64,000 nt of DNA from positions 11,251,278-11,315,277 of the forward strand of contig CAIIXF020000008.1 of NCBI GenBank assembly GCA_903813345.2. The letters are read 5' to 3'. The position numbers were made by a program, and so were the translations under genes. Source of the DNA: Owenia fusiformis. Its lineage: Eukaryota; Annelida; Polychaeta; Sabellida; Oweniidae. Of the stretch, positions 2,450 to 58,315 are shown in pieces. Each line of letters begins with the position of its first letter. Position 1 is the stretch's first letter. Below the pieces are notes generated by a model. It was not told the origin of the DNA, did no database searches, and was given only the letters and a program-made list of their open reading frames with translations.

Positions 2450-3901
2450 TCCCATCGAACGAAGTTCGGAGGGATATAGGGAACGCCTCCGTCCGTACGT
2501 CCGTCCGTCCGTCCGTCTGTCCGTCCGGGCAATAACTCAAATACCGTTGGCCCGATTTTTTTCATATTTTGTACACATATACCCCATGTGTGTAGAAGTT
2601 CTGCTCGAAAGCCGATTTTCAAAATGGCCGCTCATTTCAAAATGGCGGCCATTTTAGTGCCGATTTTACAGTAATTTAGGTGCAATATGTAAAACTGTAA
2701 TAGCAATATGTTTTAAATGTAAAAAAGTTATAAAGGACATTAATAATGCTACAAATGTAGATATTAAAGAAGCACATGGCAGCCATCTTGAAAAATGGCG
2801 GCCTTTACTCGTCATTTTACGATTTTTGCTGTAACTCAAAAAAATAGTGGAGCGAATTTGTTCATATTTGGTATGTGAATACTATAAGCATTGCACACTG
2901 TCTAAAGACACTTTTGGTAGAAGGTGGCCATTTTGAAAAATGGCCGCCATTTTAACGTATTTTACTATAACTCGAAAAGTAGTGGAGCGATTTTGTTCAT
3001 ATTTGGTGTGTGAATACTATAAGCATGGCACACTGTGCTATGACACTGTGGGAAGGAGGTGGCCATTTTGAAAAAAAATTGAAAAATGGCCGCCATTTTA
3101 ATGTATTTTACTATAACTCGAAAAGTAGTGGAGCGATTTTGTTCATATTTGGTGTGTGAATACTATAAGCATGGCACACTGTCCTATGACACTTTGGGTA
3201 AAAGGCGGCTATTTTGAAAAAAAATTTAAAAATGGCCGCCATTTTAACGTATTTTACTATAACTCGAAAAGTAGTGGAGCGATTTTGTTCATATTTGGTG
3301 TGTGAATACTATAAGCATGGCACACTGTCCTATGACACTTTGGGTAAAAGGCGGCTATTTTGAAAAAAAATTTAAAAATGGCCGCCATTTTAACGTATTT
3401 TACTATAACTCGAAAAGTAGTGGAGCGATTTTGTTCATATTTGGTGTGTGAATACTATAAGCATGGCACACTGTCCTATGACACTTTTAGTAGAAGGCGG
3501 CCATTTTGAAAAATTTTTTGAAAAATGGCTGCCCTTTTAATGTATTTTACTATAACTCGAAAAGTAGTGGAGCGATTTTGTTCATATTTGATATGTGAAT
3601 ACTCTAAGCATGGCACATTGTCTAATAAAACTTTGGGGAGTAGTCGGTCATTTTGAAAAATGGCCACCATTTTTATGTGTGTTATTTTACAAGTACGTGT
3701 GCGATTTTTCAAAAAATTTAGAGGTGGCTACTTAAAAGCATATTATATTTCTTCTGATGACAACTTGGCTAGTGAGCAACCATTTTGAAAATGGTGGCCT
3801 TTCTGGTTAGTTGTTTTATGATATTTGCTATTCGTTTGTAAAAATGCCAGCCATTTCTGTTCGATGGGATTCGCTACGCTTTGGCGTTGCCGTTGTTCTG
3901 G
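2450..3901 (+). mobile_element. Non-autonomous Helitron-like element, copy 1, with six ~146-bp internal repeats
   Basis: The element begins TC (2450) after an A and ends CTGG (3898-3901) before a T. A 3' hairpin has stem ACGC/GCGT (3876-3879/3884-3887), followed by exactly 10 nt and then the terminal CTGG. These are canonical Helitron features: 5' TC, 3' CTRR, 3' hairpin about 10 nt from the end, insertion between A and T. A second inverted pair, CCCATCGAAC (2451-2460) and GTTCGATGGG (3859-3868), lies just inside the ends. A GTCC-repeat tract follows the 5' end. The core is a tandem array with period about 146 bp, anchored by 'actataagcat' at about 2881, 3015, 3162, 3308, 3454 and 3601. Each unit carries an 'aaaatggcggccatttt'-like palindrome. 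No Rep/helicase is present, so it would depend on an autonomous partner. Assignment to Helitron rests on structure only. Confidence 0.8.
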
Positions 3902-5793: not shown

Positions 5794-6752
5794 TCCCACC
5801 GAACGAAGTTCGAGGGGGATATAGAATAGCCGTCCGTCCGTCCGTTCGTCCGTCCGTTTGTCTGTCCGTCCGTCCGTTCGTGTGTCCGGGCAATAACTCA
5901 AATACCGGTTAACAGATTTCATTCAAATTTTATAGGCTTATGCCTTATGGGTGTAGGACCTCTGCTCGAGAAGGAATTTTCAATATGGCTGCTAAATTCA
6001 AAATGGCGGCCATTTTTCGGAAAAAATATAATCTTTGATTACTCAAATACTAGTGGATGGATTTGGTTCAAATTTTATATGCTGTTGTCCGGGTACAAAG
6101 GAGCCCTGCTGAAGAAGACATTTTCAAGATGGCCACCATATTTCAAAATGGCGGCCATTTTTCGTAAAAAAACGTTATCTTTGATAACTCAAATACCATT
6201 GAATAGATTTGGATCAAATTTTATATGCTGTTGCCTGGGTACAAAGGAACCTTGCTCAAGAAGACATTTGCAAGATGGCAACCATATTTCAAAATGGCGG
6301 CCATTTTTTGTAAAAAATGTTATCTTTGATAACTCAAATACTATTGAATGGATTTGGTTTAAATTTTACATGCTGATGCCTAGGGACATCGGAGCTCTGT
6401 TCGAGAAGGGATTTTCAAGATGGCAGCTAAATTTCAAAATGGCCGCCATTTTTCGTTAAAAAACATAAGTATTGATAATTAAAATACCAGTGAATGGATT
6501 TGGTTCCAATTTTATATCCTGATGGAAATAGGAGATCTGCTTCAGAAGAAATTTCAAAGGGGTCAGCTGAATTTCAAAATGGCTGCCATTTTTCATAAAA
6601 AGGTAATCTTTGATAACTCAAATACCATTGGACGGATTTACTTCAAATTTTATATACTGATGCCTATAGATAAAGGAGCTCTGCTTGAGAAGAAATTTTC
6701 AAGGTGGCTGTTCGGTGGGATTTGCTACTCCGTGGAGTTGCTGTTTTTCTAG
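5794..6752 (+). mobile_element. Non-autonomous Helitron-like element, copy 2, with ~146-bp internal repeats
   Basis: Begins TC at 5794 after an A and ends CTAG (6749-6752) before TT. The 3' hairpin is ACTCC/GGAGT (6727-6731/6734-6738), again exactly 10 nt from the terminal CTAG. Subterminal inverted pair CCCACCGAAC (from 5795) and GTTCGGTGGG lie inside the ends. A run of GTCC/GTTC repeats follows the 5' end. The core is a tandem array of about five units anchored on 'gataactcaaata' at about 5894, 6041, 6187, 6332, 6477 and 6615, a period of about 146 bp. Each unit contains 'aaaatggcggccattttt'. The long + frame at 5947-6459 is the repeat read through, not a gene. Confidence 0.82.
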
Positions 6753-9700
6753 TTATTTTTGTTTGGTTCTTCAGGGTTCAATTACAAAACTTTAGATTGC
6801 TATCCAAACACTTTTACTTGTAATAAATACAAGCACTGTCTAGGTTATCAGAATCTTAGAATTAACCCATTTCTACAAGTATATTACTTTTACAGTTTAC
6901 CTATCTGTACCCCCCCCTCACTTTACAAAGGGATGTGTCAATAGACCTGATACATGCGCTCCACCGAATGATTCTAATATCTTTGGTGTCATATCACGAT
7001 ATCAGTCCGGCAGGAGGAATTCCAGGACATTATGTTATGCAAAACAACTGAAGTAATGTCATGTAAACTTCCTGCTGATTTGCATCAATTTGTACCACGA
7101 GGTGGGCTTGTTTTACCTCAATATGTGTCAGCAGAACATGCTGACACTGTAGAAGTCATCATTATTATTGGAATTATTTGCGTCATTTTGTATAGATTTG
7201 TCAGTAATAGATGAAATTGAAATTCACTTGATTTGAAACATGAGCTCGCAATTGTTGATGAGATTAATTGACATACTCCTCAAATCTGTGACAGCAGAAA
7301 ATAATCAGATAATTTATTTTATTTCATTCTTCATATATGATAGCATATACACTGGTGGTTCAGGATGTTACTGTTGTGTAATTTTAAATGTTTGATTTAA
7401 AGGAAGAAGAAGAGATAGAGAGGGTAGCATGTTGGAAGCAATCCTTGGAAAACATACCAAAATTTCCCTTATAAACATTTTTTCATTTTCTGAAAAACAA
7501 ATTAAAGTTTCTGATCAAACATAAAAGTTTTTAACAATTTAAAATGCAGAAATGTTAATTCATAAGAATTGAAAAATGGATAATTCCCTTTTCCATTTTT
7601 CCTGATAACCTCAAAATTGAGGGATTTTCCTGAAATGGTGAATGTAGGTTTGACATGGAATACATCCTCCGATCACAGGGCTTCAAAATCCAGAATATCT
7701 TCTTTTTTACCCCCTACGATAAGCAGTTAGCATTTCCCCGATTGAGAACTCGCAATTTGATTCGCTGTCGCAACAATGCGACAGCAATCGTGTGCACGTC
7801 ATCGGCGCATAATAAGATCACATGATTCAGTTTAATCGGGCGCTTCAAAATTGGTTTTAGCAGGGGGAAGAAGGAGGTACGGATTCTGGACACCTGCTTA
7901 GGAGGATGCATGGAATAGTGAGAGCAAAGAAATGTTGTAATATTATTCTAGTTCTTCTAGTTCCTTTATTTAAAATTATCTTTCTGATTATTTAGGCATT
8001 GTAGAAAAATTAATTATTTTTTTGGATAAACATTTACAATAACTGACTCAGAAATTTTGTTCAAATATTTTGGAGATGTCATTTGTAGAAGATATTGAAC
8101 CAGTTACATGATATAGTCTAAAATACACCTGTTATAATCCCATTGACTCAATAGATCAAGTGCCTGAATCAAGTATGTGGTTTCTGTACCGGATTAGAAT
8201 GTTTGTTCAACAGAATTGGTTAATGGTAAGTTTGCTATGTTTTGTCATTGTTATTTCAACAAAGGGATTGTATTTTCTTAATATATATGTATATGAACTA
8301 ATCTTTAGTAGTAATTATCAGACTCTTCTGTGGTACCAACATTTATCTAAGAAGGGACTTGGGTCAATATGTTTATCTTGTCCCATAAAGTCCAATAAAT
8401 CACATTTCAAATTGACCTCACCCCCTTAATAATTTTATTTATTTAGAATTTATTGATTATTTATCAAAATAAAAATCAATACACCTTTGCAGAATATAAT
8501 GCAGTTTTACCCCCTCCCCAAACATAAGTAGATACATTTGTTGGTATTCAGCAATATATTGACATTATCCCTTAATCATCATAAACACAGACTGTGAGTT
8601 CTATTTGTGTTGAGAAGTATAATTTATGAGAACTCAAATACCAGATATCAAATTTGGTTCTAATTTTTTAGGCTGATGCTTCTTGGGTATGTGACCTTGA
8701 GTCAAAAAGGAATTTCTATAACATTACCGTTGCCAGGCTGTTAAATCATGGATGGGTATAAATTTTGCAAAAAGGAGACAAAACTACTGCTTTGTTATTT
8801 TTGTAATGAAAAATATTCTAAATGATGAGTGATTGGATAAAATACTTTTTTTTATCGCCAGAGTTGATACTGTGAGTCAAATTCTTCATATCTGCCTTCA
8901 ATCATTATCTAATTCCCATTACATGACAAACTTGCTCTCTGAAACTGAGAATGTTATGTAATGGATGAACAGTGCCACTTTATTAACATTCACAGCTTGT
9001 TTATAATGTATATATTATTTTTAGCTCTGTTTGTAAGCCATGTTGTCATGTAGACGTTGTACTGAGTTGTTTACTAGTTTCATTAGAGTATTTTTAGAAT
9101 ATAACTTTATTTTTACAATATAAGGCCATTTGAATTGAATTCATTGTTTCATTAAGTCAAAATAAAAAAGTACATGTATTAGTCAAGCAGGAAGAATAAC
9201 AACATATTAACATCATTTATGCAACCTTGCATGCATGATCTGGGGAGGCTTGAGTGAACAAGATCTTACTGCTGTTTAGATTATATTGGATGAGGATTTA
9301 CTTAAATTCTTCAAGTTAAGAAATAAATGTCTAGGTATTAAAAGGTAATCCATTACTCCTGGTGCACTAAATGAAACTTTTGAGGGCAAGCTACCAATTT
9401 CCAGGACTAATTCCTAGAGATTGACCAAATTTACATAATCCTTTGTCTGTTTTGAAAATGTGGCAAATCGTGCAAGAAACAATGAATTTAATCCATTGGC
9501 CTAATATTCCTATATTTGTTTACAATGTGAACTAGTTTTGTTGCGTGTTTAAAACTCTACATTTTCAAGAGATCTATGTCAACTTGGTCTAAGAACTATG
9601 TTAATTTTGTTATCTATTTTGACACTCATCTCATCTTCCTTACTTCATAAAGAAGGAAGGATATGCCACAGTTTATCATGATGATTTGTATCGCATTTGT

Positions 9701-13685: not shown

Positions 13686-14230
13686 ATTGTATGTAGTGTA
13701 GTGTTGCGTAGTTAATGTTTTATGTTATCTATGAAGTTATGTGTTGTGTTGTGTAGTATTGCATTGTATTGTCTTGTATAGATTGTGTTTTGAAATTTTA
13801 AATTTTATGTTATATTCTGTAGTCTTGTATAGTTTATGTGTTATGAAGTTTTGTGTTGTGTAGTATTGTATAGTTTATTTGTTATGAAGTTTTGTGCTAT
13901 GTTGTGTAGTATTGTATAGTTTATGTTTTATGCCATATGTGTATCATTGTGTTATTTTGTCATTTGTTTTGTAGCATTGCATTGTATTGTCTTGTATAGA
14001 TTGTGTTAAGAAATTTTAAATTTTATGTTCTGTAGTCTTGTATAGTTTATGTGTTATGAAGTTTTGTGTTATGTAGTATTGTATAGTTTATGTGTTATGA
14101 AGTTTTATGCTATGTTGTGTAATATTATATAGTTTATGTGTTATGACATATGTGTATCATTGTGTTATTTTGTCATTTGTTGTGTAGTGTTGCATTGTGT
14201 TGTAAAGTATTGTGTAGTAAATATGTTTTT
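13686..14230. repeat. Low-complexity TG/TA-rich higher-order repeat
   Basis: Repeated 'tgtgtagtattgtatagtttatgtgttatgaagtttt' words fill the block. A longer unit of about 210 bp occurs at least twice: 'agcattgcattgtattgtcttgtataga' recurs near 13764 and 13975. It is strongly T/G biased on this strand, with almost no C. Confidence 0.75.
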
Positions 14231-17279: not shown

Positions 17280-17572
17280 ATTAAAAACAAAGAAGAACCA
17301 CAAGCTCAAGATCACAATAAAATAATAAACATCACCATCTTAATAACAAACAGAAACTGATTGATATTACTGACAACGATATCAGACACGTAGACAGAAG
17401 GTTGGCTTAAAGATTCCCACTCAAAACAAGAGGAACAAGTTCTAACTGCCCAACAAAAGCAGTGTAGAAGAACTACGTGGCCTGGTAGGGCATAAAGAAA
17501 TAACAGAGAGTGGTGTTGCAGGACATATATTTATATAACAATATGAGATTACCAAATAAGTATATTTATATC
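17280..17572 (+). other. Putative 5'UTR part of the first GPA2 coding exon
   Basis: Runs from the AG of 'tatttgcag' (17271-17279) to the GPA2 start codon with no in-frame upstream start giving a longer protein. It implies an untranslated upstream exon not identified here. Splice-site inference only. Confidence 0.4.
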
Positions 17573-20500
17573 ATGAAAGCATTGATAGTGACACTGACTG
17601 TACTAGTTACAGTGATAAATGGACATTCTTGGGAGCAGCCAGGGTGTTTTAAATTAGGTGGGTAGCTTTAAAAATCTTTGCTTTGTACTTTTCTCTCATT
17701 TTTACTTTTTAGTATGAAAATTTAAGTTCTGAATCAAAATTGTGTTACGACAAGTGTTTCGACTAGCAGGTGTTTACAGCTTTAGATTTCTAGGTTTCTC
17801 ACTGTGTGAGTCTATCGGAGATACTGAAATTGGGATCAAGGAGAAGTGTTCGCTTTTAGAGGTGTTTTGATATAGGTTCAATTGTATATTGAAAGTCAAT
17901 ATTGAAAGATTCACCTTATGGCACCTTTACTACATTTAGATCAAAGTCTTCAAACATGTTGAAATCATAGGGTTAGATCACAGTAGACAGACTTGATATA
18001 GTATCAGCAAGTTTGAAATTATTAAGTGATAACTTTAGATCTTTGAAAAATGAGAAAAATGTTGGCACTTAATAACACAAGCTTGATAACATATCTACAT
18101 TATAAAGAATTAAATATTCATAGTTCAATTTAGCTAATTTGGTCAGTTTAAGTACTACTCTTTCCAAACTTTGAAACTTTCCCCCACAGTCCATTTGTGG
18201 ACTTGTTGTGACAAATCACTGGACACATTGACAACAGGCTTTCAAAATTATACAAACCTCTAGAGGATATATAAAGATAATCAAAATACTTAACACAGAG
18301 TCCATTACCTCACCTATCCAATATGAACCTCACCTATCCAATATGAACCTTCATGGATTAATTTGGGACGTCACTTAGTTTGCAATATTGTGTGGAGGTG
18401 GAATGGGAATTGCGTGGTCAATAAGAGCTTTAATCTTCTATTAATATACAAGTCCTGCAGCTGTCTGTCATGTTTTGAATTATGTGACTTCACTTGACCT
18501 TGGGAATGAAGGACAGCTTAATACTTCTTCTATTCATCAACTCATTCACCGGAAGGGAATTTCAATGGGCAGAAAAGGAAAGGGAACCACCTTTCTAACT
18601 TAAATGATGTATAGTTATGGACTTTTAAGCTCCTTGGTGTGGAGATTAGTCTAAGGACACTTGAGATAATGATTTAATCCATAGCTTCATTGGTATAATA
18701 TTACAATTTATATTGTTATAGGTTTGAATTACTGTCGACTTACCTGGCTATTAACATATGATTTTATCCCAATATTAATCTTCTTTTCAAAAAAGAGTGT
18801 AGAATGATCTATCAGTGTCAATATGTCAACATCATAGTTTTCTAGATCTCCAATCTAGGTCAGTTAATTTGTAGGTACTGTAGAATCAGACATTTAGGGT
18901 TGAAAGAATTTCCAGTAACAAACCAATAAGTAACTTCCAATTCATCTTTATCCCATTCATTTTTTCCCATTCATCTTTCTCCAATTCATCGTTCTCCTAT
19001 TTGTCTTTCATATTTGAAAAAGAAGTAGGGAAATTTTCTGGAATATATACACAGAGAATGTTTCCAAATTCTTCAGATTTAACAAAGCCGTTCATTTTTT
19101 TTTCATCTTATTCTGAAGCGAAATCTATATCAGTGACTTTCAATATTGACTCATTCTGTTAAATTAAACAAAATCAAAATTGGAATTATTTTGCAAAGAA
19201 TGTTTACAAATGAAACTGATTGCTTCACAAGACATCACAATAGCTTCATAAAGTCTAATCAGCCTTGTGGGTGGGATGTCTTATATTTCCAAATGGATTC
19301 TTTCACTTTCAATTTGAGTAAGTAAAGCTTATCAAGAATAGAAACATATCTTCCATGGCATCCAATATATTATGACTTGCTAGATCAGTGACTTCACACG
19401 TGTTCAGTATGTTGATCTGCCATTTAACGTATCTTAACAGGACCTGAAAGGGAAAGTTAAAGATTAGAGAAAAAATGAAATATACACCTAAGAGTACAAC
19501 TATTCAAGAGGAAAACAAACCACACTATCCCAAATGATGATTTTAACACACAAAGAAACAGTGTTTAATCTAATACATTCTTCACCACCACAATGAATCA
19601 TTATAATACATGTAGAAAAATAAAAGAATTCCAATATACCTATATACAGTACACCTGTACTTTATTTCAAACAAGATGCAGCATTCAGTCTCAAATAATG
19701 TGTGATAGACAAAATCCCATAACTGTTCATCTAATGCACTCTCAAAGAAATAAATTCTGTTGATGAAAAAAATTCAAATGGAAATGTGAAATTATTCTCT
19801 GTTTTCAGGCCACACACGAAAAGTCCATATTCCTGGTTGTGTCTCATTCCAAGTGACAACTAATGCATGTCGGGGATTCTGTATGTCGTATGCAGTGCCT
19901 TCCAACAGTCTTACACAAGAAATTAATCCAAATCACATTCTTACTAGTCGGAGCTCTTGTTGCAGTATAGACCAAACACATGATGTAAGTACATGTACAA
20001 TTTCTCCAAGGCATAATTTTTATTTTCTTCTTTGGAAATAAGTTGTTTCTTCCTTAGAAATAATCAAGTTTCTCCTGTGGAAATATAAGTTGTTTCTCCC
20101 TTAGAAATTATTAGTTTCTCCTGTGGAAATATAAGTTGTTTCACCCTTAGAAATAATTAGTTTCTCCTGTGGAAATATAAGTTGTTTCTCCCTTAGAATA
20201 ATTAACCCATTGAACAAAGTTCAGGAAGTTATAGAGAATGGTTCAGTTCATACATATGTCCGTACGTACCTTCTTCCATCCGGGCAAACTCAAATAACAT
20301 TGGTTTATTTTCGTTTATATTTTATACGCATATGCCCTATGGGAGTACAAGTTCTGCTCGAAAATTGATTTTCATATTGGCCACCGTTTTCAAAATGGCC
20401 ACTGTTTTTGTCTCAATTTTATAGGTACAACAATTATAAAATTGTAATATTAATATCTTTTAAAAGCAAGAAAAAGTATATGGTATTGACACAGTTGAAA

Positions 20501-23371
20501 ATCTAAATATTTAAAATAAACATGGTGGTCATATTGAAAAATGGTGGCTATTACATGCTATTTTATGATTTTTGTTATTTCTCCAAAAGCAGAAGAGTAA
20601 TTTCGTTCATATTTGATATGTGAAAACGTATAAGCATGGCACACTGTCTTGTGACACTTTGTCTACTACGAGTAATAACTCAGATAGTGTTGGAGCGTCT
20701 TTGTTGAGATTTTATATGTCCCTACTTCGGAATATATTACACTTTCTTATGACCATTTGGCTAGTGAGGTGCCATTTTTATGTGTGTTTTTCTTGATTTT
20801 TGCTATAACTGGAAAAGAAGTGGAGCCATGGCTGTTTAGAATAACTAGTTTCTCCTGTGGAATAAGCTTCTTCAGCTTCAAGATATATGTTTTTCTTGGG
20901 GGAGTAAAAAGCTTTAGGACTAATTACTATAGTTTATCTTGTTGGAGCTTTTCCTTTGAGAGGAATTAACTTCCCTGTGAGATTAACTTCTTCATCAGGA
21001 GTAATCGGTGTCTTCAATGGGAGATATTATTCCATTCATTTTGGTTAAAATTTGTAGATTCTGCTTCAAAATTATAGATTTTTTGGAGTGTACTTCTAAC
21101 ATTCTGGCACAGGCTCACAATTCAAATACAGTTTAAGTCCACTTCATTGAATCTTTTATATTTAATTGAAATCAGTCCAGGACTCAAACTTAAAGAAAAT
21201 TGTGAACAAAAAATATCTATAGTCCTACAGAACAAAAGAAGATGCTTGCAAAACTCTAAACTCAAATTTAATATCTAACAGCAAGGCCAATATGTCTTAA
21301 TATCATATTTTATTGCCGGTTGTAATTGGTCTATAGGACATATGGGAAATTAAAAAAACATTTTCAGTAAAAAGGGTTAATCTTCTAATTAGATAATATC
21401 CAATATAATCAGGCAAGAACTAAAGGGAGGGTGTGTTCTGGTACAATTTTTAGATAAATTGACCAAATTTTAAACCAATTAAAGAAATAATCTTTATTAT
21501 GTAACATCTAGGGAGCAATAATAATACTTTATTCGTATCCTCTATGAAGAATTATACTCAATTACCATAGAGTAAAACCTGCCTAGGAGGTTTACAGATG
21601 TGTTTCATTTCATAGGTTTAACTGTACTCACAAAAACAATAGGTGTAAGCTCCCCATTATCATCTTGTTACATCTGCCATTTTACACCTCCCTGATCCCC
21701 TCTAAAGGAATTCTTATTATATAGGCCTAGACAAGATGTAGAGATATATAGAAGATGCCTGTCTGTCCAATTGGCAATAACAAAAATATTATTTGATTTG
21801 ATTGAAATTGTAAAGGCTTATGGCTTATGGGCATGGGACCTCTGCTCAAGAAGGAATTTTCAATATCTTTCAGAAAGAAATAACTGTTTGGACCAATCGA
21901 GTGAGGATTTGCGTAACAATTTAGCAATAGTATTGATGATATAACAATGCAATTGCACATGTGCTTGTACTTAGGATATACAAAATCAATTCTGTCCAAA
22001 AGTGAACTCGATCATGATGATGAGGCAATATTACCTGGGTCTGGAGACAATAATTCTACTCATAATGCATCATTTAATATCATATTCTACCATTAAAACT
22101 AATGATCCTCTATTCAGAAACCTGATCCTGGTACATCAATTTTTGAACAATGGATTTTTCCTCTAGAGCAAATGTTTTGGACAAAAATATCTCGATTCAT
22201 ATGGAGAGAAATAGGCTGTTCCTGCTAGGTCTTATATTTTTAAATCTTAGATGGTGAAAACGAAAATGCTGTAGGCTTTGATAAAATAACAAATACAAAA
22301 GTTGTTTATGAGTTGAATAGTTGGGTTCCTCCTATTAGCAAAGTATCTGCCCCTTGAGGCAAACTGGCGCCTGAAATGTATCATTTTCAATACAATGAGT
22401 TGGCTTTGTAATATTGGGACATTAACCTGTTTTTAGTTTATCATTGATTGAACTCGATTATATCACATCTACGTGTATTGTTCTTATGTTTAAGTTCTAC
22501 ATTAGTGGCATGAGTCAAATTATATTCTTCAATCCCAATGGAATTATGCATTTGTGTGTAACAAGAGTTCATTTGCAGGGAAAATGTGAATGCTTGGTCA
22601 ATAATAATCTGTCCTCATCCTGAAAGGTAAATGATAAAACCGATACCTATTATAACTGCCCTTATCCCGTATGGTAAATGATAAAACTAAAACCTATTGT
22701 TCTTTACATCAGTGTCATTGCTTCTAACGTGATAATGATGTCTCAGTGCCTCAAGCAAGGAATTTATCTCCAATATTTGATAATTAATGACACCTGCTTG
22801 AATATGCATACCTTATTGCTTATTCACACATGTATCTTAACAAAAAATGTGCTTTCTTGATTAATGGCAGATACATGTATATAAAACTTTTGATTTTTTT
22901 CTTATTTATTTATTTTACATTTTTAATACAATTTTACATAACTTTTGATTATTTATCTCTTTTGAGAAGAATCTCTTTCTTCCCATGCGAGTTAATTTTT
23001 TTGACAATCAATGAATCACAGTGATTTGTGGTCATATACAATAAAAACTGTCTCAGTGTCCACTTTGGAGGTGTTCCCTTTATAGGGGTTCGTTTAACAT
23101 TAAGTCAATTGGTTTTGGGACTCTTAAAAGTATTCCACTAACAGAGGTGTTCAATTTGTGGAGATGTTCCATTTTGCAGGTTTTCTCTGTATTGAGCCAT
23201 AAACTTTGAATCTTTGACCTCCTTCTTAAAAGACTCCAATCCATCTGTATTTATACTTAACTTTGCTTTTACTTGCAGGTGGTGGTTAATGTACGTTGTA
23301 TAGATGGAATGAGAGAGTACACCTTTAAATCAGCAGCCAGCTGTAAATGTTCCATCTGTCGCAGAGGCTAG
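17573..23371 (+). CDS. GPA2: Glycoprotein hormone alpha-2 subunit (thyrostimulin alpha)
   Basis: Three coding exons: 17573-17657, 19809-19984 and 23279-23371, all with GT-AG introns and phases that join in frame, give 117 residues. Residues 1 to about 19 (MKALIVTLTVLVTVINGHS) are a signal peptide. The mature part has ten cysteines in the cystine-knot order, including the stretches 'IPGCVSFQVTTNACRGFC', 'SRSSCCS' and the end 'AASCKCSICRRG'. These match invertebrate GPA2. Family knowledge: GPA2 is secreted and pairs non-covalently with GPB5 to make thyrostimulin, which acts on an LGR1-type leucine-rich-repeat GPCR. The start is the only ATG in frame before the signal peptide. The first coding exon probably continues upstream as 5'UTR to an acceptor at 17279. 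AATAAA lies at 23594-23599, about 220 bp after the stop. The partner GPB5 lies 4.8 kb downstream in convergent orientation. Intron 2 holds a minisatellite with a Helitron-like insertion. Very confident in the family; the UTR boundaries are inferred. Confidence 0.94.
18308..18348. repeat. Perfect 20-bp tandem duplication
   Basis: 'cctcacctatccaatatgaa' occurs twice in a row inside GPA2 intron 1. It looks like recent slippage. Confidence 0.7.
20036..20204. repeat. 46-bp minisatellite in GPA2 intron 2, left part
   Basis: About four copies of a 46-bp unit made of 'gttgtttctcccttagaaat' and 'aattagtttctcctgtggaaat'. The array stops at 20204 and the next unit resumes at 20849 beyond an inserted element. 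It shows little divergence between units, so it is young. Confidence 0.85.
20205..20848 (+). mobile_element. Helitron-like element, copy 4, inserted in the minisatellite
   Basis: The left end 'acccattgaacaaagttcag' aligns with the 5' end of copies 1-3 (TCCCA..GAACGAAGTTCG), with the first T changed to A. Internal sequence matches copy 1, including 'ttcgttcatatttgatatgtg' and 'taagcatggcacactgtct'. A 3' palindrome AGCC-AT-GGCT (about 20824-20833) is followed by 11 nt and CTAG (20845-20848). The flanking minisatellite reads 'ttagaataatta' before the element and 'tttctcctgtgg' after it, which rejoin as one unit. There is no clear target-site duplication, as expected for Helitrons. Confidence 0.7.
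21820..21870 (+). mobile_element. Small fragment of Helitron-like internal repeat
   Basis: 'aaaggcttatggcttatgggcatgggacctctgctcaagaaggaattttcaatat' matches the start of the copy 2 core (about 5933-5987). Ends are missing. It lies in GPA2 intron 2. Confidence 0.55.
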
Positions 23372-26300
23372 TTGCATCAATACACAGCTCCCCCTGGTGA
23401 ATGACTCAGTGACGATACAGTTGAAAGCAAACTCTCTGAATCCTTTCCATCCCTGCGAGTAACTCTGAGTCATCAAGCTCATGAAAGTAGCCCTCTCAAG
23501 AGCCTTGTGAATTTTAATATTCGAACCTTGAATCTCCAATATCTTCACAAATATGTATGTGTTCAGACTGACAAAATATCTTATTCTCAAAGGAATAAAT
23601 CTAACTGAGAACATCTAAAGGACAATCTTCCCAGAATGCAATTCTCATCTGGCGATACCATTTTTGTTGAGACATAAGAATCATGGGAGGCAATCAACTA
23701 CTTTGCACATCCCTTTGTATTCGGGACATCTAGCTGATGCCACTGATAGATGAGTTAAAGCCTGATGAAATTAGACAAGTGTGTAAGTGTTCATTGTTTC
23801 CCTGATAATGGACATTAGTGGGACACATCATCAGGAATTTTAACAAAAACCTAATGGAGTCTGTCATTTCTAAAAGGTATATTATTTGTTGTAGACTCAA
23901 TCAATAATTTCTTTGTTTAATTGGCTCTGACTGCCAATGTTTAATTGGTGTTATTAAGCGCAATTAGACTTCAAAGTAAAGTTTATATTAAATGACTGCT
24001 AAATATAATATGATTTTTGTTAATTTTGAAATTGATAGCATTGATGCCATCCCCACTTTCACATTATATATATATATTATATCGTAGGTTGAAACAATGT
24101 GATCATGTCATTGAATACTCACATGGACATTATCATGAACAACTCAACAACTCATCATTTTATCATAGCCCTTCTCTTCTTTCTAATTGCAAATCGGAGA
24201 ATCTTCTCTTCCAATTATGGAGATTTGATATCAAGAGAATTTCATACTTATTGGACAAATCTGACTAGCGGGCATGTTATTTTCGAATACATGTACATGT
24301 TTAATGATAAATGTATGCTTGTCCAGATCATACAGTAAGTAATTGGCCCCGTGCTGTGCTAATGTCTTACGTATGCAATGAGAATCAAAATGCTAGTATT
24401 AGTTTTCTAAACTATATTTATTTATTAGCTAAACTGTATTTATTTACCTTATCCATAAAGCCTTCATGTATTATTTAACTCAGCAGATTTTTGTAGATTC
24501 TTGAGAGATTGCACAAATTTCAGTATTGTAAATCATCGTGATTCATTAAGGGGTACTGAGCTGTAACAAGGCCATATTGTTACGGATGTGACACAATGTT
24601 ATGGATGTAACTCAATGTTACGGATGTGACAACATTAAAGATGTAACATAATATTACACATGTGAAACAATGTTACTGTTGCGGCGATAATTGTGTGACA
24701 CAGTTATTTTAGTATGACATATTTGCAGTGCCATAATACTGCAGATGTTACTGATGTGAATTTTACAAACAATTCTACAGATGTGATAGAATGAATTTAA
24801 TTTTTATGTGACCCACTCTATTAAATACAAAAATAAGTACATTGTATTACAAAAATGTGTATGGAATACTCATTCTTGATGTTACTCAAATAGCATATAA
24901 AAGTAATGTCCAAAATGCTTTCAGTGATGTGGAACGATGTAACTGTTGTACTGAATCTGATATAAAATGAATGCAGAATGTAAGCTCCCATAATCCTGTA
25001 TGCTGTCTAAAAGCCAATTATGAATATTAGAAATAAATTCACATAGCTAGGCAAGATTATCAAATGTAAGCCAATCAGAACACAGTATTTAAAAATAAAT
25101 GCATTCTATATTTTTCAACAGAGTGAATGGCTATTTTTAGATTCATTGAAATTGATAACCCTTTCAATTTCATAAATCCTTTAGTATTTAATTCTTATGA
25201 ATTGTATATTTTTATTTATTAATTGATTATTAGAATTTCAACAAATGATAGGATAGTAGATGCAATGACAATACAATTACCAGTATGTGTATGCATATCT
25301 TACAGAATAAGATTACTTCAAATCAAAATAGTTAGTGTAGCTTTAATGTAAAATGTTGTTGAAGGAAATATGAATAAGTAAATTGTTGCCATGGTAACAT
25401 GTACAAATATATTCATTGGAAAAATGATGGTATGCAGGGTCTGTTTTGCCTTGACCATCTTTATTTTGAATGTACATGTTTAGGTGGTGCCTATTTGCCA
25501 TACTTGATGTTGTTAAGACAAACACAACATTTCTTCTGAATATAGTGAGCTATATTTTAGAATTGATGTTGCGTTGAGCCAAAAGCAAAGTATCCACAAT
25601 GATGTACAACTAAATCTCCAAATAAATGCTATCTGTTTACTACTCTATACACAATCATGTTGTTTTTCTAACATTTTATTTAATAATTGGACAAAAATAT
25701 TTTGTTTTGTAAGGAAGTTTGATTTTTTAATTCCGGAGAACAGGTTTTGTATTTTGATTTGCAGAATTTCTGTTATAACAATTTGGCGATTCAGCTGTTT
25801 TATTCTGCTCTATAGAAGTTGTCAACTTGTCATAGTAACTTGAAATAGTGTTCAGTGGAGCAAATCATAACGTCACTGATTATAAAAAAGCAGTTACTCT
25901 TTTAACAGGATCTCTGATCTGTTGATCTTTTCAAGCCATTCTATTGACCAGTCAATCAATTTCTTTTCATGAGTTTATACTAATGGTTTTGAACACAACG
26001 CCTACTAACAAAACGTCAGTAGAACTGTCAAAATGGAATCAGAATACGACTTTTGACAAGAGATATCAGAAAAAGAGTGACCATCTTTCCTTGTAAGTGG
26101 GATGAGGATTTGCTCTTGAACAACCTGTATTTCCTGTTTTATGGTAAAGATTAAAAGGTGGATTGCATCGAGTGGATTGGATTCATGTAAAAGGAGGACT
26201 GGATTGAGAATCTTAAAAATATAGAATTTTAATTTATTTTTTTGTCTGTTGATCTCCCTCTAAGAACATTGTTGCTCACATCCACAATGTGAAATAACAG

Positions 26301-28145
26301 ATGTAATATTATTTTGCTTGGGTGGGCTAGAAGGGTGACCTGGTAGCTGCTTTTCGATACACAATCTCATTCATTCCAAGTGTAATTTTAGGCAATTCAT
26401 AAATCATAAGGCTGTAAGGAAGATTTGCTTTGAAGATCCATATCAATCCAAACAGAACATAGCAGAATTTGTTTTGGGAATATCCATACATCATTATATG
26501 GTGACCTCTTTGTGCTCTTTCCATAATTATCTACACAATCAGGGCCAGTAAGTGCCTTTAAAAGGGGGGACCATAATCCCCGGGGGACCATAATTTCTTT
26601 CACACCGGGTTCTTGATAAGGCTAAGCAAAAAAATTATATTTTCTTACTCAAAGACAAGGCTCTCTATTTAAGTTGCTCAAAACGATAATTTCTGAGTGA
26701 AGCAATAACTAAGATGTAGCCCGCCCCAATTGTTTCATTTTTGGACCACCCTGTATCCGGTGTATTAAAATGTCACGTGGCTTGCATGCAAATTGGCCAC
26801 CATGTCACAAAAGCATCTTCCATTATTCTGTGATATCATTGTCAGATTCAATTCATTTTAATAAATAGCTTGAGCGTATGAAGGCTAACTGAAAGGATGT
26901 GTTGGTGTATATAAGTGATTGCGATCCACGTGATTAAAGAACACACATGGCGGGTTTACATGAAAGGTGGTCGAATGGCTGGAATTGAATAACAAAATGG
27001 CGGTATGGCGTTTTTATTGAAATAACATAATATACCATCGTGTAGAAAAATAAAAAATCTATTTCAATATACAACATATATATTTACAATAATTGTGATT
27101 AATTATTTATTCATAACATATGTATTGTATTACACTCGTTAACATTGCATTACATTCATTTGACATTAATATCCATTGAACATTGTTTACCTTTTCGACT
27201 CGTCGCTTTGGTTTTAGCTTGCACTGTTACTGGCCTTATCTGTTATATGAAACGTACTCTAATAACATCTTAATATCAAGCTAATTGTTCAATTCAATAT
27301 TTGTCTACCAATATGAAATGCAATAAGTTGGAGAGAACTGTTAACGTTATTAATCTCAGTCTTGTGAAATGAGTATTCGCATGGTATGTACGGTGTACAC
27401 ACCAGGCCGCAAGTTTAGAATATATAGCGTTCTCCTTTTTTGTCCATAATAACCTCATGTGAATAAGTGGAATAAAGTTGGCTAGAGCTACCTGTGTTAA
27501 CCACGGGGCGTACTAGATGTTCGAAAATCAAAGATGGTCAAGCTCAAAATGCATTGTTTCATTTTTGAACTTGTGGCAATAAATGTATCTTAGTAATTTC
27601 AATACGCCCCTTAGTTGACCCAAATAGCTGTGGGCTATGTGACATATAACCGATATAAGATCGTTCTATTCATTTAACATCGACTTTATATTAATCAAAC
27701 GCTAATTATCCCCTTCTGTTGCTTTGACTTATATTTTTAACATAACCCCAAGACATCGATTAGGCCTTGAAATGGTGATTAAATAAGAATCAGTTTGATA
27801 GAGTAGGTGTAGACAGAACGTAATGTGATATAAACACGCGACCCACACCAAAATGTCAGCGTCGGGTTAAATAGAACGTATCAGAAAAATATACATCACA
27901 ATTCATGTCGACAAGTATCAGGTTATAAAATTGCTTGGGCGCATGGGTTTTGATGTTTTGAGCATTCTCAAGTCTTAGAAAACTAGCGCCGCTTCGTTCA
28001 CAAATTGCCGCCACATGGAATGCATCTCAACTTCTTGCCTGAACTCCCTGTCTCTCCAAGGAAAAACAACGAGGGACAAGTATGTTCGAAAGGTCCACCA
28101 TCAAGCTCTTTCTTTCATTTTTGAAGTCGTTTTAGCAGGATACCA
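23372..28145. other. Intergenic between GPA2 and GPB5 stop codons
   Basis: Contains both 3'UTRs, whose ends are not determined beyond AATAAA at 23594 for GPA2. A degenerate tandem of about 20 bp ('gttacggatgtgacacaat') lies at 24575-24680. A direct duplication of 'gggggaccataat' lies near 26567-26596. No other gene was recognised. Confidence 0.5.
24575..24680. repeat. Degenerate tandem repeat, ~21-bp unit
   Basis: About five copies of 'tgttacggatgtgacacaa' with substitutions ('atgttatggatgtaactcaa', 'atgttacggatgtgacaac'). Confidence 0.55.
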
Positions 28146-28908
28146 TCAGCCGTGTAAGCTCTCGCAACTGGTGTAGTCCGGGTCACATTTGGTACACCTG
28201 CAGTCAGCTGCACTATATACGGTGTAGTATGGGTCGGGATGCCTGGGATCACACCTCATTAATCTTACAACTCGCTTAACTTTTTTTGTAAAAGTACATA
28301 CATTGTGGTTGCTTATTTTGTAGGGAATCTCATAGTCGGGAATCTGAAAAACATCAAGATCTCAAATGAGCTCAAATAAAAACGAGGATAGCAATTTACA
28401 TGATGTATTACTGTTTGGCGCAACCTAAATGATTTACCTATTGACGTTTAATTAGGGAAACATCGCATCCCTTCCTCAAAATTGCTTTCTGGTGTTGGTA
28501 CCTATCATATAAATATATTCATCCTTATTACCAATGTATGGCCAAAAAAGTTCAAAAACTTGAAAAAATCTTCGACGTTCATATAGCAAAGAAAGAGATA
28601 TGATAGACTATAAATTTATTAAATAATAATCCACTAAACCACGCGGGTAAACTTGTAATGAATACTCTGACAGTACTCACCTCGCTTGTGTCACAGCGTC
28701 CCCAACATGAATTGACGCTCACAACATCCCAGCATTGTAAGACCTCTCCACTTGGGAGAGTATGGGGTTTGTTCACCTTAAAGTTGTACTCCCTAACAAG
28801 GCAAGATATAGTCGTTTCCTCATTGATGTAGTCAGTAGCATGGGCAGATACTGCTAGACAAAATATCGCCAAAAATATCGCACTGACGTCGATGTCGCTC
28901 ATCCCCAT
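28146..28908 (-). CDS. GPB5: Glycoprotein hormone beta-5 subunit (thyrostimulin beta)
   Basis: Two coding exons on the minus strand, 28908-28681 and 28343-28146, joined by a phase-0 GT-AG intron (donor GTGAGT at 28680-28675), give 141 residues. The N-terminus is a signal peptide; translation could start at ATG 28908 or at 28902, two codons later. The mature part has ten cysteines: 'ISCLVREYNFKV' opens the knot, 'SCWGRCDTSE' is the CxGxC-type loop that identifies GPB5, and 'AADCRCTKCDPDYTSCE' is the C-terminal half with the extra cysteine. Family knowledge: secreted partner of GPA2. The AG of 'cttttcag' at 28919-28917 suggests a 5'UTR intron directly upstream, so the upstream in-frame ATG at 28953 would be intronic. 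The exon layout is compact compared with GPA2. Very confident. Confidence 0.94.
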
Positions 28909-31930: not shown

Positions 31931-33226
31931 AATTTGAAATCCTGGGAGCGTTAACATCAGTTCAACATCATCATTTCAAACCTACGGTAATACTATTGAA
32001 GTTACTCGATCCATACTCGTAGAGAATACTCATAAAACTACAGTGAACATTTGGAGAACCATTTCAATGGCAATTTGAGGCCTGCTTATAAAATTTGTTT
32101 TCGAACGTGCTAATATGATAGGGCATCTTTGGGAAATCTCCCCCCCTGGTTGGAACCCAGTTCTGATCAAGTACGAAGTTATTGAAATCGGCGCAGTCGG
32201 ACTTTACTCCGAAAGACGGTTTTTCGATTATAACTTTTTACAACATTTAAGTATAGACTTTTGAAAAAAGTACAGAATAGTCCTTATACTGTTGAATAAT
32301 TCTGTTATTTCTGATTCACACGACTCTAATTTGTTTAATTAAAAAAAAGTTTTAAAAATATTACTTAGGAACGTAACCGGAGCTGGGTACGTAACTAAAT
32401 TATATCTAATTTATGCTTTACCCTTCGAAAAAGAGAAAGTTTTCAAAACTATAATATATTTAGATAAAAAATACATCGGTTACAAAATAATTTCTAAAGA
32501 AAATCTCAAAGTCTCTCGATGTGTCTAAACATTTTCAAGGTATAGAGGTTATAGATTTGCACGATGCTTTGCATTTCTAAGAATTAAAGTGAATTCCTTA
32601 GGCACATTTCTTTGAAACAAAATAATATATGGAATATAAATAAAAATAGAGCCTTGCTTACACCCTCAATCATGTTTATGTACTCTCATCGAATGACCCG
32701 ATTTAATAAATCAATAAATGGCCATATTCTGCTTTCCAATAAGTAAAGTGTGTAGTTACTTGTGTTATATCTCAGTTGATTTCTAGATTGGATTTTTTAA
32801 AAGAGGACCTCATGATTAATTTGTAAAAATAAATCAAGGGTTTTCTATTTTATTGTTTCAATATAATGAAAAAAAGGTTCTGCAACAGGAAAAATAAAAC
32901 ATAACGGAGCTTTGACACTATGTATAGGCCTATATGATATCGTTGGTACTTGACTAGCCTACCTGTAGGCCTATACACATTACGCCGACGGTCAAGAAAA
33001 CCACTGGCATTTCCCGGGTCCGATCATTGTTACTGTAAAGATTCACATATGCTCGTGATTATCATTGTAAGTAAATACAAGGGATGTAAGTTAAGATTTT
33101 CTAAAGTACACTAAGCGTATTTAGTTCAGTAAATACTTTTTCAGTACGTTTTTTCCCCTCTAATGAAATCAGTATATTTTCGTCCAGTGAAAATTTTTCT
33201 AACGAGTGTAAACTTCCTGTACAATA

Positions 33227-33409
33227 ATGGAACTTTCGGGGAGAGAATCTCTTTTATTCTTCTCTGTATCATTCGGATTGGGATGTATAGCAGGTTATCA
33301 TCTATGTGAATTGAGGATACGATATCTGAAGTCAAAGCGGGACCGATTAATAGATAAAGCCAAGGCTGCACAAGCTAAGATAGAAGCAGCAAGTGGGGGA
33401 TTATTTTGA
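33227..33409 (+). CDS. MTLN: Mitoregulin-like mitochondrial membrane microprotein
   Basis: A single-exon frame of 60 codons. Residues about 8-26 (LLFFSVSFGLGCIAGYHLC) form one hydrophobic membrane segment. A basic, helical tail follows with 'RIRYLKSKRDRLIDKAKAAQ'. This layout and the 'RxRYL..KRxRLxDKxxAxQxK' pattern match vertebrate mitoregulin, a 56-residue inner-membrane microprotein that affects fatty-acid oxidation and respiratory complex assembly. Length is nearly the same. The start ATG has A at -3 and G at +4. It is followed by a TGA and an AT-rich tail. A splice acceptor 'ttttcgtccag' about 40 bp upstream is compatible with a 5'UTR intron. Risk: short frames can match by chance, but the whole length aligns. 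Confidence 0.75.
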   Translation: MELSGRESLLFFSVSFGLGCIAGYHLCELRIRYLKSKRDRLIDKAKAAQAKIEAASGGLF

Positions 33410-38608: not shown

Positions 38609-38875
38609 GTAAGTTCACATTTTAATCAGTGTTTTAGATAACATAGTAGTATAATATGTAAATATAAATGTACACCACACACAGTCCTGAGTCGTTGTTA
38701 ATTATATGTTACGGTGTAAGTACATATTTTATATTTTTCACAAAAATCAATCAACTATATATCAAATTGAGCATTTGAAAATGTATCACAAGTATATAAT
38801 GTACCTGTATTTGTACTTTGTACCGGCACATTTACTTTGTAAATAATCTGTAATTTACTTTATGTTAGATTTCAA

Positions 38876-41800
38876 ATGGATGATAAAACCGGAAAAATAA
38901 CCCCTACAATTTTGGTACATGGAGGTGCTTGGGGCATCCCAGATACTTTAGCCGAAGCTAGTGTTGAAGGGGTTAAAGCAGCAGTTAAGGTCGGCTATGA
39001 GGTCTTAGTAAATGGTGGTAGTGCTGTAGATGCGGTAGAGAGGGCTGTGCGTAGTCTGGAAGATAACCCCGCTTTCGACGCTGGTTAGTTTATTTCTATT
39101 CATTATATACCTTATGCATATTTTGAACACTCATTGACTAAATATCTTATTCATATGGTATGGAGAAAAAGACAACTTTCCTGAATTTCACTAACCTGAG
39201 ATTAAAGTACTTATAACCAGTCATTAGTGTGACCTATCGATACTTCATAGCTCACATATGCATGGTGTAGCTATGTATCACCCACTCGTCTGTTTGTCCG
39301 TTCGCATATCTGTCAGTCAGTAATTTTCTTACAAATCAAATCTTAATCTGACTTAATGTACAGGTCACGGTTCAGTTCTGAATTCACTGAAGCAGGTAGA
39401 AATGGATGCTGTCATTATGGAGGGGGACCACTTAAATGCTGGGGCGGTTGCGTGTGTACAGAACATTGCAAATCCTGTTAGCCTGGCACGACTGGTCATG
39501 GATAAGGTAACAATCGTTTTCTTATCAACCTATATTCAATTTTGACGTAAAAGAGAACAGGACTAAAATGTTTCCATAGATTGAACATGTTGAACAGTAC
39601 CAATATCACAGTCCTCCCCGCCCAATTTCCCGTCTGTTAATCGGAGGACATTTTGGACTTCCAGATGCACTAACTTAATAATATTTGTATACTCTATCTT
39701 TATATCTATTACAGACAGACCATGTATTACTAGTGGGACGAGGTGCCAACATGTTTGCAACTGAAATGGGTGTCCCCAGTGTACCCATGGAGACATTAGT
39801 AACACCCAATGCAGTAAAAGAGTGGGAGGAAATGATGGCATACAATCAAACAATTAGATCTTGTTTCAAAAATAGGTATAATTGCTAGTTGCATGATATA
39901 AGGTTATACTATTTCGATGTGCAAATATGAATTTCATAATCCTAGATTCCAAATAGGAGCATTGCAAATCATTACTTAAACTGGCTGTGTAATGAAAAAA
40001 CTAATTTTAGTTTTATTAATTGAGGAAAGTGACTCAAAATGCAAAACATCTTGAAAATTGTATTTTTATTGGAATGTGTTCCAGAAAAATAACCCGCCGT
40101 CTTTGTTCACTTTAATCAATGTAAACTTATTTTAAATATTTGTCCTTATGTAGTAGTATATATTACACTGCAATTAAGTCAATTTAAACCCCACTTAGGT
40201 AGCAACACAATATAATTAACTGTAGTTTATTTTCAAGAATGTACAGTTGTAATAGAATACTTTCGGGACACCCTGTACGTTGACTCTTCTTTTATCACTT
40301 TGCATTCTTTAATAAAACAATTTATAATTTTTAGTTGCTACCTGAAGTATTGAGCTAAGCTAACTTACAATTTCTCCTTCATGATATCCATGTCTAACGG
40401 CTACTCTGTAGCTTGCCTGTTACATGGACACCCTAATCCCTCTCATACATGTATTAACTCACGATCAACATATACATACTGAGCCTTATGGCCTTGGGCT
40501 TTCGGCCCTTTGCCATTATTTCACCAAATACCAAATGCTCAGGGTCTATCCATTTCGTAACATGCCATTTCTATAGAACATCCATGGTATTGCTATCCAA
40601 TCCGGGAAAACCATGATGCCATAGTACCTGTACGAGTGGAGAAATATTAATCAAGTTCCCCGAGGTAGAATCGTGTGGTATAACACTCTCATAAACAAAA
40701 TTCTAGTCTAGCTGCAAACCCCTGTGACCCCTCTCCCATTACTTGACTACACACCTTCTAACACAGGGAAGGTGTATAGTGGGATGGGGTGGGGGAGTCA
40801 CATGCATGGGCTTGTAACTAGACTATTAAAAGTCCTTGTATTGTAGGAACATCGACGAGGCTGTGCCAGTACAGACAGGTCACGATACTGTAGGTGCAGT
40901 TGCACTTGATTCAAAAGGAAATGTAGCATTTGCAACATCCACTGGTGGTATCACTGCCAAGCGACCAGGGAGGGTAGGAGACAGTCCTTTAATTGGTGAG
41001 TAATGGCGCGTGCATGGACTTTCAATAGTACTGGTGATCCACTCGATTACGCTGGTTACCGAAACGGGTCGTTTCGGTAACAAAATGTCGGAACGTCGAA
41101 GGTATGATGCCAAATCTCAGAGCAATTTATCTCCATTTAAGAAAAATATTGAAGAAATTGAGGGTTGCATTTTTGGGGTCACCCTGTAAATTATTATAAA
41201 AAAAGAAAACATGGAAAAATTTGATTATGTTTTGATTTATATATAGTGTATTTGAAGTTTTTGATGGCTCCCTTATATTTTAAACATATTGAAAGGTTTA
41301 CTTCAAGGGACGAAATCAGAACACACCCATCATCCCGTGGCTCCTTTCCATGATTTGTCCCGATTTTATGGGTGTACTGTATATTATATCGACCCAAGTA
41401 TGGTGTGTTTTTCAGGTAGTGGTGGATACTGTGACAACAGAGTCGGTGCCGTTTCTACCACAGGGCATGGGGAGGCTATCATTAAAGTATGTCTCGCTAA
41501 ACATATAATGCAGTATATGGAGCAAGGTATATAACATCGTATATTTAGCACATTTTCTGCCATGCATGCATGTTATGGTTTTATTTTCGATTATCATCTT
41601 TTAGAAGAGAGAAGGCTAAAATTTTCAAACATGACTCATGTTATGCAGTTAATAACAACAAAATACTTTATTTATTCTCATTTCAGGCTATACAGCACAA
41701 GAAGCATCTGATAAAGCTATACAGTACATGACTGATAGAGTACAAAGCTCAGGTGGAGTAATAACTCTGAAGAACAATGGGGAGATCGGGTTGAGCTTTA

Positions 41801-41895
41801 GTACAGAACGTATGGCTTGGGCATCTCTGCAGAGCAATACTTTAAATTACGGACTTAATCCCGATGAAAAATGTTCAGAGAAATTTATCATTTGA
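38876..41895 (+). CDS. ASRGL1: L-asparaginase / isoaspartyl peptidase, tandem copy A
   Basis: Six coding exons, 38876-39083, 39364-39506, 39715-39875, 40847-40995, 41416-41526 and 41687-41895, all with GT-AG introns and consistent phases (1,0,2,1,1), give 326 residues. It is an N-terminal nucleophile hydrolase: the precursor cleaves itself before the catalytic Thr, which here is T185 in '[10 protein letters not shown]'. Other active-site residues sit at the expected spacing: T203 ('STGG'), R213 and D216 ('GRVGDSP'), T236-G237 ('TTGHGE'). The N-terminal 'LVHGGAW' (H15) and '[10 protein letters not shown]' are also present. The family hydrolyses L-asparagine and beta-aspartyl dipeptides. ATG 38876 follows an acceptor at 38868. 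It appears intact. Copy B lies 5.2 kb downstream in the same orientation. Introns hold small hairpin elements (40704-40824, 41055-41081). Confidence 0.95.
40704..40824. mobile_element. ~120-bp hairpin MITE in copy A intron 3
   Basis: Left 'ctagtctagctgcaaacccc' and right 'gggcttgtaactagact' are inverted. The centre 'ccttctaacacagggaagg' closes the stem. It is absent from copy B at the same place, so it inserted after the duplication or was lost there. Confidence 0.65.
41055..41081. repeat. Perfect 12-bp-stem hairpin in copy A intron 4
   Basis: GTTACCGAAACG, loop GGT, CGTTTCGGTAAC. Not conserved in copy B intron 4. Confidence 0.8.
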
Positions 41896-47104: not shown

Positions 47105-47138
47105 GTTAATGCCTTGTTTAATATATGTTAGACTTGAA

Positions 47139-57965: not shown

Positions 57966-58315
57966 CTGAAAAACCAAGACAGTAAAGTAACAGTCATATA
58001 AAGTCATAAAAGTAGACAGTTAAATGCAGAGAGCAATCTTTGCAGAGATAGAGAACATGCTAATTGGATGTATGAAACGTTGGGTGCTGTCGCATCCCCA
58101 ACTAAGATGTACAAAGGGCATGAATATGTATGTGTAAATACAGCATATGCAACATGAATAATGCATCTCTAGGACCCCACCTTGATTCACAAGGCTTCAG
58201 TTGCTCCTAATTCAAAGGTGTGGGGCCTCTTAAACTGAGTGTGTGATGGACTATGTAAAATAAAACCAGGATGTCTCAAAATATGTAAAACTATGATTCC
58301 ACTTTTTACAGCATT
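57966..58315 (-). other. Intron of the DUF288 gene upstream of its last exon
   Basis: Starts with a pyrimidine-rich acceptor. No upstream exon was recognised before the LINE 3' end at 58316. Confidence 0.5.

Follow-up and report, generated by a model that had tools for sequence, protein, structure and literature searches.

A convergent GPA2/GPB5 gene pair in Owenia fusiformis: very probably an intact, ordinary invertebrate thyrostimulin locus

The locus and its gene models

The window, by which we mean the whole stretch of 64,000 nt that was analysed, contains two genes for cystine-knot proteins: GPA2 on the forward strand and GPB5 on the reverse strand, which converge and are separated from stop codon to stop codon by 4,774 bp (Table 1). 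A preliminary description of this DNA had proposed three short plus-strand exons for GPA2 and two minus-strand exons for GPB5, and both models could be reconstructed with GT/AG borders and open frames, the junctions given there (17657/19809, 19984/23279 and 28681/28343) being exact in the sequence; the tail-to-tail order at a distance of 4.8 kb and the remark that most exons are shorter than 200 nt (four of the five coding exons) were likewise borne out.

Table 1. Coordinates of the two subunit genes and of other features of the window
Feature	Position	Strand	Remarks
Tandem array	2932-3660		146 bp x 5.0
Tandem array	5893-6708		145 bp x 5.7
Tandem array	13747-14203		213 bp x 2.1
GPA2 coding exon 1	17573-17657	+	85 nt; probable signal peptide and first Cys
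GPA2 coding exon 2	19809-19984	+	176 nt; Cys 2-6, including knot CRGFC and the CC pair
GPA2 coding exon 3	23279-23371	+	93 nt with stop; Cys 7-10 (CKCSIC)
Gap between stop codons	23372..28145	.	4,774 bp, A+T-rich
GPB5 coding exon 2	28343-28146	-	198 nt with stop; last three knot Cys, Cys IV and V
KVKR, GPB5 codons 97-100	28272..28283	-	possible convertase site between fifth and sixth mature Cys
GPB5 coding exon 1	28908-28681	-	228 nt; probable signal peptide and first three knot Cys (CWGRC)
Mitoregulin-like ORF	33212-33406	+	single exon, likely start 33227, about 60 aa; MTLN (PF22002) 36.0 bits (cut-off 27), E 6.3e-09
Isoaspartyl peptidase/L-asparaginase	38843-41892	+	multi-exon copy
Isoaspartyl peptidase/L-asparaginase	46944-50816	+	multi-exon copy
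STELLO glycosyltransferase ORF	55986-58019	-	678 aa; PF03385 122 bits (cut-off 27.8)
ORF with repeated residues	58754-59374	+	about 58 residues in common with the next feature, by eye
ORF with repeated residues	61462-62055	-	about 58 residues in common with the preceding feature, by eye
Long ORF	62286-63998	-	resembles the reverse transcriptase region of a non-LTR retroelement, judged by eye

Splicing joins the three GPA2 exons into an uninterrupted reading frame that codes for 117 aa, among them ten Cys (positions 25, 39, 49, 53, 79, 80, 94, 109, 111, and 114), of which those in C49-RGF-C53 and C109-K-C111 form the knot motifs, and the introns, of 2,151 and 3,294 bp by the coordinates, have the borders GTGGGT...TTTCAG and GTAAGT...TTGCAG, respectively. 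In Pfam, the spliced protein clears the cut-offs of DAN (33.4 bits against 22) and Cys_knot (30.5 bits against 24), and exons 2 and 3 without exon 1 still pass both models, with 29.5 bits on Cys_knot and 27.9 bits on DAN, exon 1 contributing 1.0 bit on Cys_knot and 5.5 bits on DAN. Taken alone and unspliced, the ORF of exon 2 reaches 19.6 bits on DAN, below the cut-off of 22, and that of exon 1 matches no Pfam family. Exon 1, which lies 2.15 kb upstream and has an additional in-frame ATG ahead of it at 17543, is the least-supported element of both gene models. By a simple rule (an ATG, a hydrophobic start, and a phase-1 donor), it is the sole signal-peptide-like phase-1 first exon within the 6 kb upstream, with two nested ATGs at 17543 and 17573; on both strands of the whole window the same rule yields 13 candidates, the two nested ATGs of GPA2 included, and this count corresponds to a chance rate of about 0.6 first exons per 6 kb, or 0.4 when a Cys is required.

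The spliced GPB5 coding sequence has two coding exons that encode 141 aa, and its single intron of 337 bp (GTGAGT...TTTCAG) is placed four residues past the third knot Cys. The precursor contains 11 Cys, of which C17 falls within the probable signal peptide as read by eye and ten follow it (36, 59, 68, 72, 92, 107, 124, 126, 129, and 136), with six residues between the last two Cys and the C-terminus five residues past the last; the ten Cys per subunit of the preliminary description therefore apply to GPA2 and to mature GPB5, but not to the GPB5 precursor. The signal peptide that it had ascribed to each subunit is probable in both cases by eye and, for GPA2, also by the hydropathy rule. The spliced GPB5 protein scores 43.0 bits on Cys_knot (cut-off 24) and 14.5 bits, below the cut-off, on DAN, and while its exon 1 ORF alone matches no Pfam family, the exon 2 ORF, alone and unspliced, already scores 38.2 bits on Cys_knot (cut-off 24), so that part of the Pfam signal is independent of splicing. 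The position of the intron also has a published counterpart: in a TSH-beta variant without its first coding exon, all three knot pairs lack one Cys (PMC8522476), which implies the same three-and-three split of the knot Cys between exons that is seen here in GPB5.

Identity of the two subunits

We consider it very probable that this is an apparently intact, ordinary invertebrate thyrostimulin locus, with GPA2 on the plus strand and GPB5 convergent to it on the minus strand. The gene models, the fold family, and the subunit class are the directly supported part of this reading, which draws on the GT/AG borders, the intact frames, the Pfam scores (a cystine-knot domain being present above the cut-offs in both proteins), the PDB matches, the Cys features, the position of the GPB5 intron, the human reference sequences, the usual linkage, and the single copies. 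With respect to the Cys features, GPA2 has been described as having ten Cys, an 8-residue ring (CxGxC and CxC), and, unlike GPH-alpha, no extra Cys inside the ring (PMC3224965), all of which is found in the present protein; the features published for GPB5, namely ten mature Cys, the absence of cys II, a cys IV and cys V seven residues apart, and the absence of the seatbelt Cys (PMC3224965), are all four found as well. Vertebrate GPH beta subunits (FSH, LH, and TSH), in contrast, have twelve Cys including the seatbelt pair (PMC3224965), a pattern that differs from the ten mature Cys of GPB5 here. A vertebrate-type GPH alpha/beta pair was rejected on the Cys layout and on the reference scores given below.

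Searched against the PDB, GPA2 returned seven distinct sequences at E <= 1, headed by 8enb_A (3.3e-06) and followed by two von Willebrand factor sequences (0.064 and 0.15), MIB1, two NBL1 sequences, and norrin, all six at 0.064 or above, and GPB5 returned six matches, comprising FSH-beta and TSH-beta at 1.6e-07 to 9.1e-07 and 8enb_B at 1.1e-04. The chain 8enb_A carries the PDB name 'Bursicon'; we take it to be the C. elegans alpha-2 subunit and 8enb to be the structure that Gong et al. (2023) described for alpha2/beta5. The preliminary description had named a best match to bursicon or mucin-like proteins among the outcomes that would speak against its identification, and what is found is, for GPA2, this chain of presumed alpha-2 identity, with von Willebrand factor only at the values just given, and, for GPB5, FSH-beta and TSH-beta. 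A C. elegans alpha2/beta5 structure is described in PMC10319355, where it is cited without a PDB code.

A rough comparison with reference proteins used five sequences: human GPA2, human GPB5, common alpha, FSH-beta, and Drosophila bursicon alpha. GPA2 scored 36.5 bits with human GPA2, 25.9 with GPB5, 11.2 with bursicon alpha, 9.4 with common alpha, and 2.0 with FSH-beta, and GPB5 scored 59.6 bits with human GPB5, 33.9 with FSH-beta, 10.1 with GPA2, 1.3 with common alpha, and -2.0 with bursicon alpha, so that among these five references each subunit appears closest to its human namesake. The spacing between the first two mature Cys of GPB5 is 22 residues, against 13 in the human GPB5 reference (nine extra). 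The GPA2/GPB5 identity that had been proposed for the pair is supported.

By tblastn, no further subunit copy was found in the window: outside the five exons there are 12 rows, six per protein, at E 0.72 to 7.2, one row for each protein being the knot of the other subunit, and further copies of GPA2 or GPB5 in the window were rejected on these values. What we count against the very probable thyrostimulin reading is the weak support for GPA2 exon 1 and the lack of a Pfam match in both first-exon ORFs, together with the higher score of GPA2 on DAN than on Cys_knot, the name 'Bursicon' on its best PDB match, and the absence of sequons.

Candidate processing site and glycosylation

Cleavage of GPB5 at the KVKR site would be predicted to leave a C-terminal part of 41 aa (4,725 Da, pI 6.0) and a larger N-terminal part (8.8 to 9.1 kDa, pI 5.5 to 6.3, with the signal peptide end set by eye), each carrying five Cys. 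A KR site in GPB5 is, according to PMC4200219, kept only in oysters among the molluscan sequences compared there, and elsewhere it has been seen in scallop and oysters and considered possibly bivalve-specific (PMC5996578). Judged by this site alone, a bivalve source of the DNA would be plausible; against it count the ten Cys of GPB5 here, where scallop GPB5 has nine, an N-terminal part that is not basic, and the possibility that a single dibasic site arises twice.

Neither GPA2 nor GPB5 contains an N-x-S/T sequon (x not P), and the N-S-C at aa 66-68 of GPB5 uses a knot Cys; the N-glycosylated subunits known from vertebrates and, for GPA2, from flies and mosquito are therefore without a counterpart here. 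Protostomes have been described as having one N-glycan site in GPA2 and none in GPB5 (PMC4341566), from which GPA2 here differs in having no sequon, and loss of secretion or of expression has been reported for mutants that lack N-glycan sites (PMC12691860). In the sea hare and the tick, however, both subunits are without N-glycan sites, and invertebrates vary in this respect (PMC8522476), so that such sites are not a defining feature in invertebrates.

Arrangement, linkage, and surroundings

In the gap between the stop codons the first A[A/T]TAAA after each stop lies at 23594 on the plus strand and at 27111 on the minus strand, and since these signals are 3.5 kb apart, the two transcripts need not overlap; the motif is weak evidence of 3' ends, because the A+T-rich gap contains 15 of them on the plus strand and 22 on the minus strand. 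That the two genes are linked in other invertebrates, which the preliminary description mentioned, is right (PMC4079206, PMC4200219, and PMC8522476). GPA2 and GPB5 are described as lying almost always close together in bilaterians, with the human and limpet subunits as exceptions due to translocation and with shared regulation suggested as the reason for the linkage (PMC4079206); a tandem organization is reported for most invertebrate species (PMC8522476), and the ancestral chordate locus is described as linked, with teleost GPB5a adjoining GPA2 (PMC3280201 and PMC6752823). The linkage of the pair in invertebrates is already well known rather than new, and the preliminary description had correctly annotated a locus of a familiar type. 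Our literature search found no statement of a tail-to-tail order of GPA2 and GPB5, and among the literature matches listed, none beyond the opposite strands in Aedes concerned the orientation of the genes. The earlier suggestion that the arrangement bears on the ancestral layout stands in part: the ancestral linkage has already been argued in print, and on orientation the present locus contributes a single further observation.

To the left of GPA2, no gene was recognised among ORFs of at least 42 aa read by eye, and the ORF at 8112-8426 had no match in Pfam. The region to the right of GPB5 contains an ORF resembling mitoregulin, an asparaginase gene in two copies, a STELLO-type ORF, and a retroelement-like ORF. 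Mitoregulin is a mitochondrial micropeptide known from vertebrates, and the match here is in an invertebrate. The asparaginase exon ORFs matched Asparaginase_2 in all five cases tested, and for one of these ORFs the top PDB match is isoaspartyl peptidase/L-asparaginase. We take human ASRGL1 to lie at 11q12.3. The environment of human GPA2 has been described as a block at 61-67 Mb of chromosome 11 (PMC3280201), and an asparaginase gene next to GPA2/GPB5 may be an old synteny, to judge from a place of ASRGL1 inside that block. Genes named in print as neighbours of the chordate locus were absent from the ORFs examined, 20 of which were tested with Pfam. Further right, the ORFs at opposite strands that have about 58 nearly identical residues in common (RPPRLPTTRTSVLIPRTTF...) point to an interspersed inverted repeat. 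Three tandem arrays lie in the left part of the window, and in the stretch there were no Rfam matches at the gathering threshold and no tRNAs in a tRNA scan.

Proposed function and alternative readings

Each gene encodes a cystine-knot subunit of the secreted type whose ring has 8 residues. By analogy with relatives, from which secretion, dimerisation, the receptor, and any shared regulation are carried over, GPA2 and GPB5 would pair non-covalently, without a seatbelt. The receptor of the resulting thyrostimulin would be a GPCR with leucine-rich repeats, of the LGR1/TSHR type (type-A LGR), and the hormone would serve a neuroendocrine or paracrine role, for example in the control of ion transport (PMC3896475). 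No gene for an LGR1/TSHR-type receptor was found among the ORFs of the window that were read by eye or tested by Pfam.

The pairing step is where an alternative has to be weighed, namely that the subunits are genuine GPA2 and GPB5 but act mainly singly, as monomers or homodimers, rather than as a heterodimeric hormone. We hold this to be unlikely. In its favour, GPB5 has no seatbelt Cys, GPA2/GPB5 dimers have been argued to dissociate on dilution (PMC3224965), in Aedes the heterodimer band was detected only with tethered subunits (PMC7137729 and PMC8522476), and the expression patterns of the two subunits differ in other species (PMC7137729 and PMC3224965), whereas the C. elegans subunits are reported to be heterodimeric in solution (PMC10319355) and the co-conservation of the pair with its receptor has been used to argue against separate roles (PMC8522476).

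A further alternative, that the locus has decayed or that an exon, above all GPA2 exon 1, has been wrongly assigned, and that one subunit is therefore not produced in the form given here, appears improbable to us. Such a reading could appeal to the small addition that this exon makes to the scores (1.0 to 5.5 bits) and to the chance expectation of about 0.4 to 0.6 such exons per 6 kb, but neither spliced frame is interrupted, none of the expected Cys is missing, and the exon 1 junction is in phase and brings a hydrophobic start together with the first knot Cys. A chance splice or a pseudogene was rejected on the intact frames, on the passing of GPA2 in Pfam without exon 1, and on the passing of GPB5 exon 2 alone, although the Pfam cut-offs are reached neither by exon 2 of GPA2 taken alone nor by the first-exon ORF of either gene.

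Finally, we consider it very improbable that the genes encode a different pair of cystine-knot proteins (bursicon alpha/beta, for example) or DAN-family BMP antagonists. These readings were rejected on Pfam, PDB, Cys counts, and reference scores, the comparison with bursicon being based on one reference sequence and published Cys counts: the slight excess of the DAN score of GPA2 over its Cys_knot score, the 'Bursicon' name, and the weak NBL1 and norrin matches are opposed by ten mature Cys in each subunit against 11 in most bursicons (PMC5996578), by the DAN score of GPB5 below the cut-off, by its cys IV and V spaced as in published GPB5 (PMC3224965), and by human GPA2 and GPB5 outscoring bursicon alpha in the rough reference comparison. 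A resemblance of GPA2 bridges to DAN bridges has been noted in print (PMC3224965).

Returning to the thyrostimulin reading, a more far-reaching version of it would hold that the ancestral bilaterian layout was convergent and has been kept here and, as regards strands only, in the mosquito, that thyrostimulin is unglycosylated here, and that GPB5 is cleaved at KVKR into two chains that stay joined by disulfides, giving an active hormone of three chains; as a whole we regard this combination as quite doubtful.

Significance and comparison with known systems

The locus cleanly illustrates the two-gene layout that is regarded as ancestral to the vertebrate alpha/beta hormone subunits (PMC3280201 and PMC8522476). 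It adds one data point on orientation, one on absent N-glycan sites, and a GPB5 whose dibasic site is of the kind that has been proposed for bivalves; it overturns none of the published views, and its main use lies in surveys of orientation and of the bivalve-type KR site.

Among known systems, the structure 8enb, which we take to be that of C. elegans GPLA-1/GPLB-1 (flr-2 and T23B12.8), provides the top PDB match of GPA2 and one of the six matches of GPB5, and is distant in sequence from both. A GPLA-1/GPLB-1 heterodimer has been reported (PMC10319355). In the oyster Crassostrea gigas, GPA2 and GPB5 are linked 'in tandem' (PMC4200219), and they are linked here too. The GPB5 precursors of C. 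gigas and Pinctada fucata have 137 and 133 residues, respectively, compared with 141 here, and the KR site of oyster GPB5 separates a basic part of 8,193 Da from an acidic one of 4,708 Da, both containing five Cys (PMC4200219), to be set against about 8.8-9.1 kDa and 4,725 Da, again with five Cys in either part, in the present case; the N-terminal part, however, is called basic in the oyster and has a pI of 5.5 to 6.3 here. Scallop GPB5 has nine Cys, whereas GPB5 here has ten. GPA2 and GPB5 of Aedes aegypti occupy opposite strands, like the pair here, with less than 9.9 kb between them, and each subunit has ten conserved Cys, as here, but each cloned gene has one intron, that of GPA2 being 14,378 bp long, against two introns in GPA2 and one in GPB5 here, and the mosquito GPA2 is N-glycosylated, unlike the sequon-free GPA2 of this locus (PMC3896475).

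Human GPA2 and GPB5, as judged from the rough reference comparison, belong to the same subunit classes as the two proteins here. The human genes have moved apart (PMC4079206), whereas the genes here are linked, and the vertebrate subunits are N-glycosylated (PMC8522476), in contrast to the two subunits described here; teleost GPB5a, on the other hand, is located next to GPA2 (PMC6752823 and PMC3280201) and thereby shares the linkage of the present pair.
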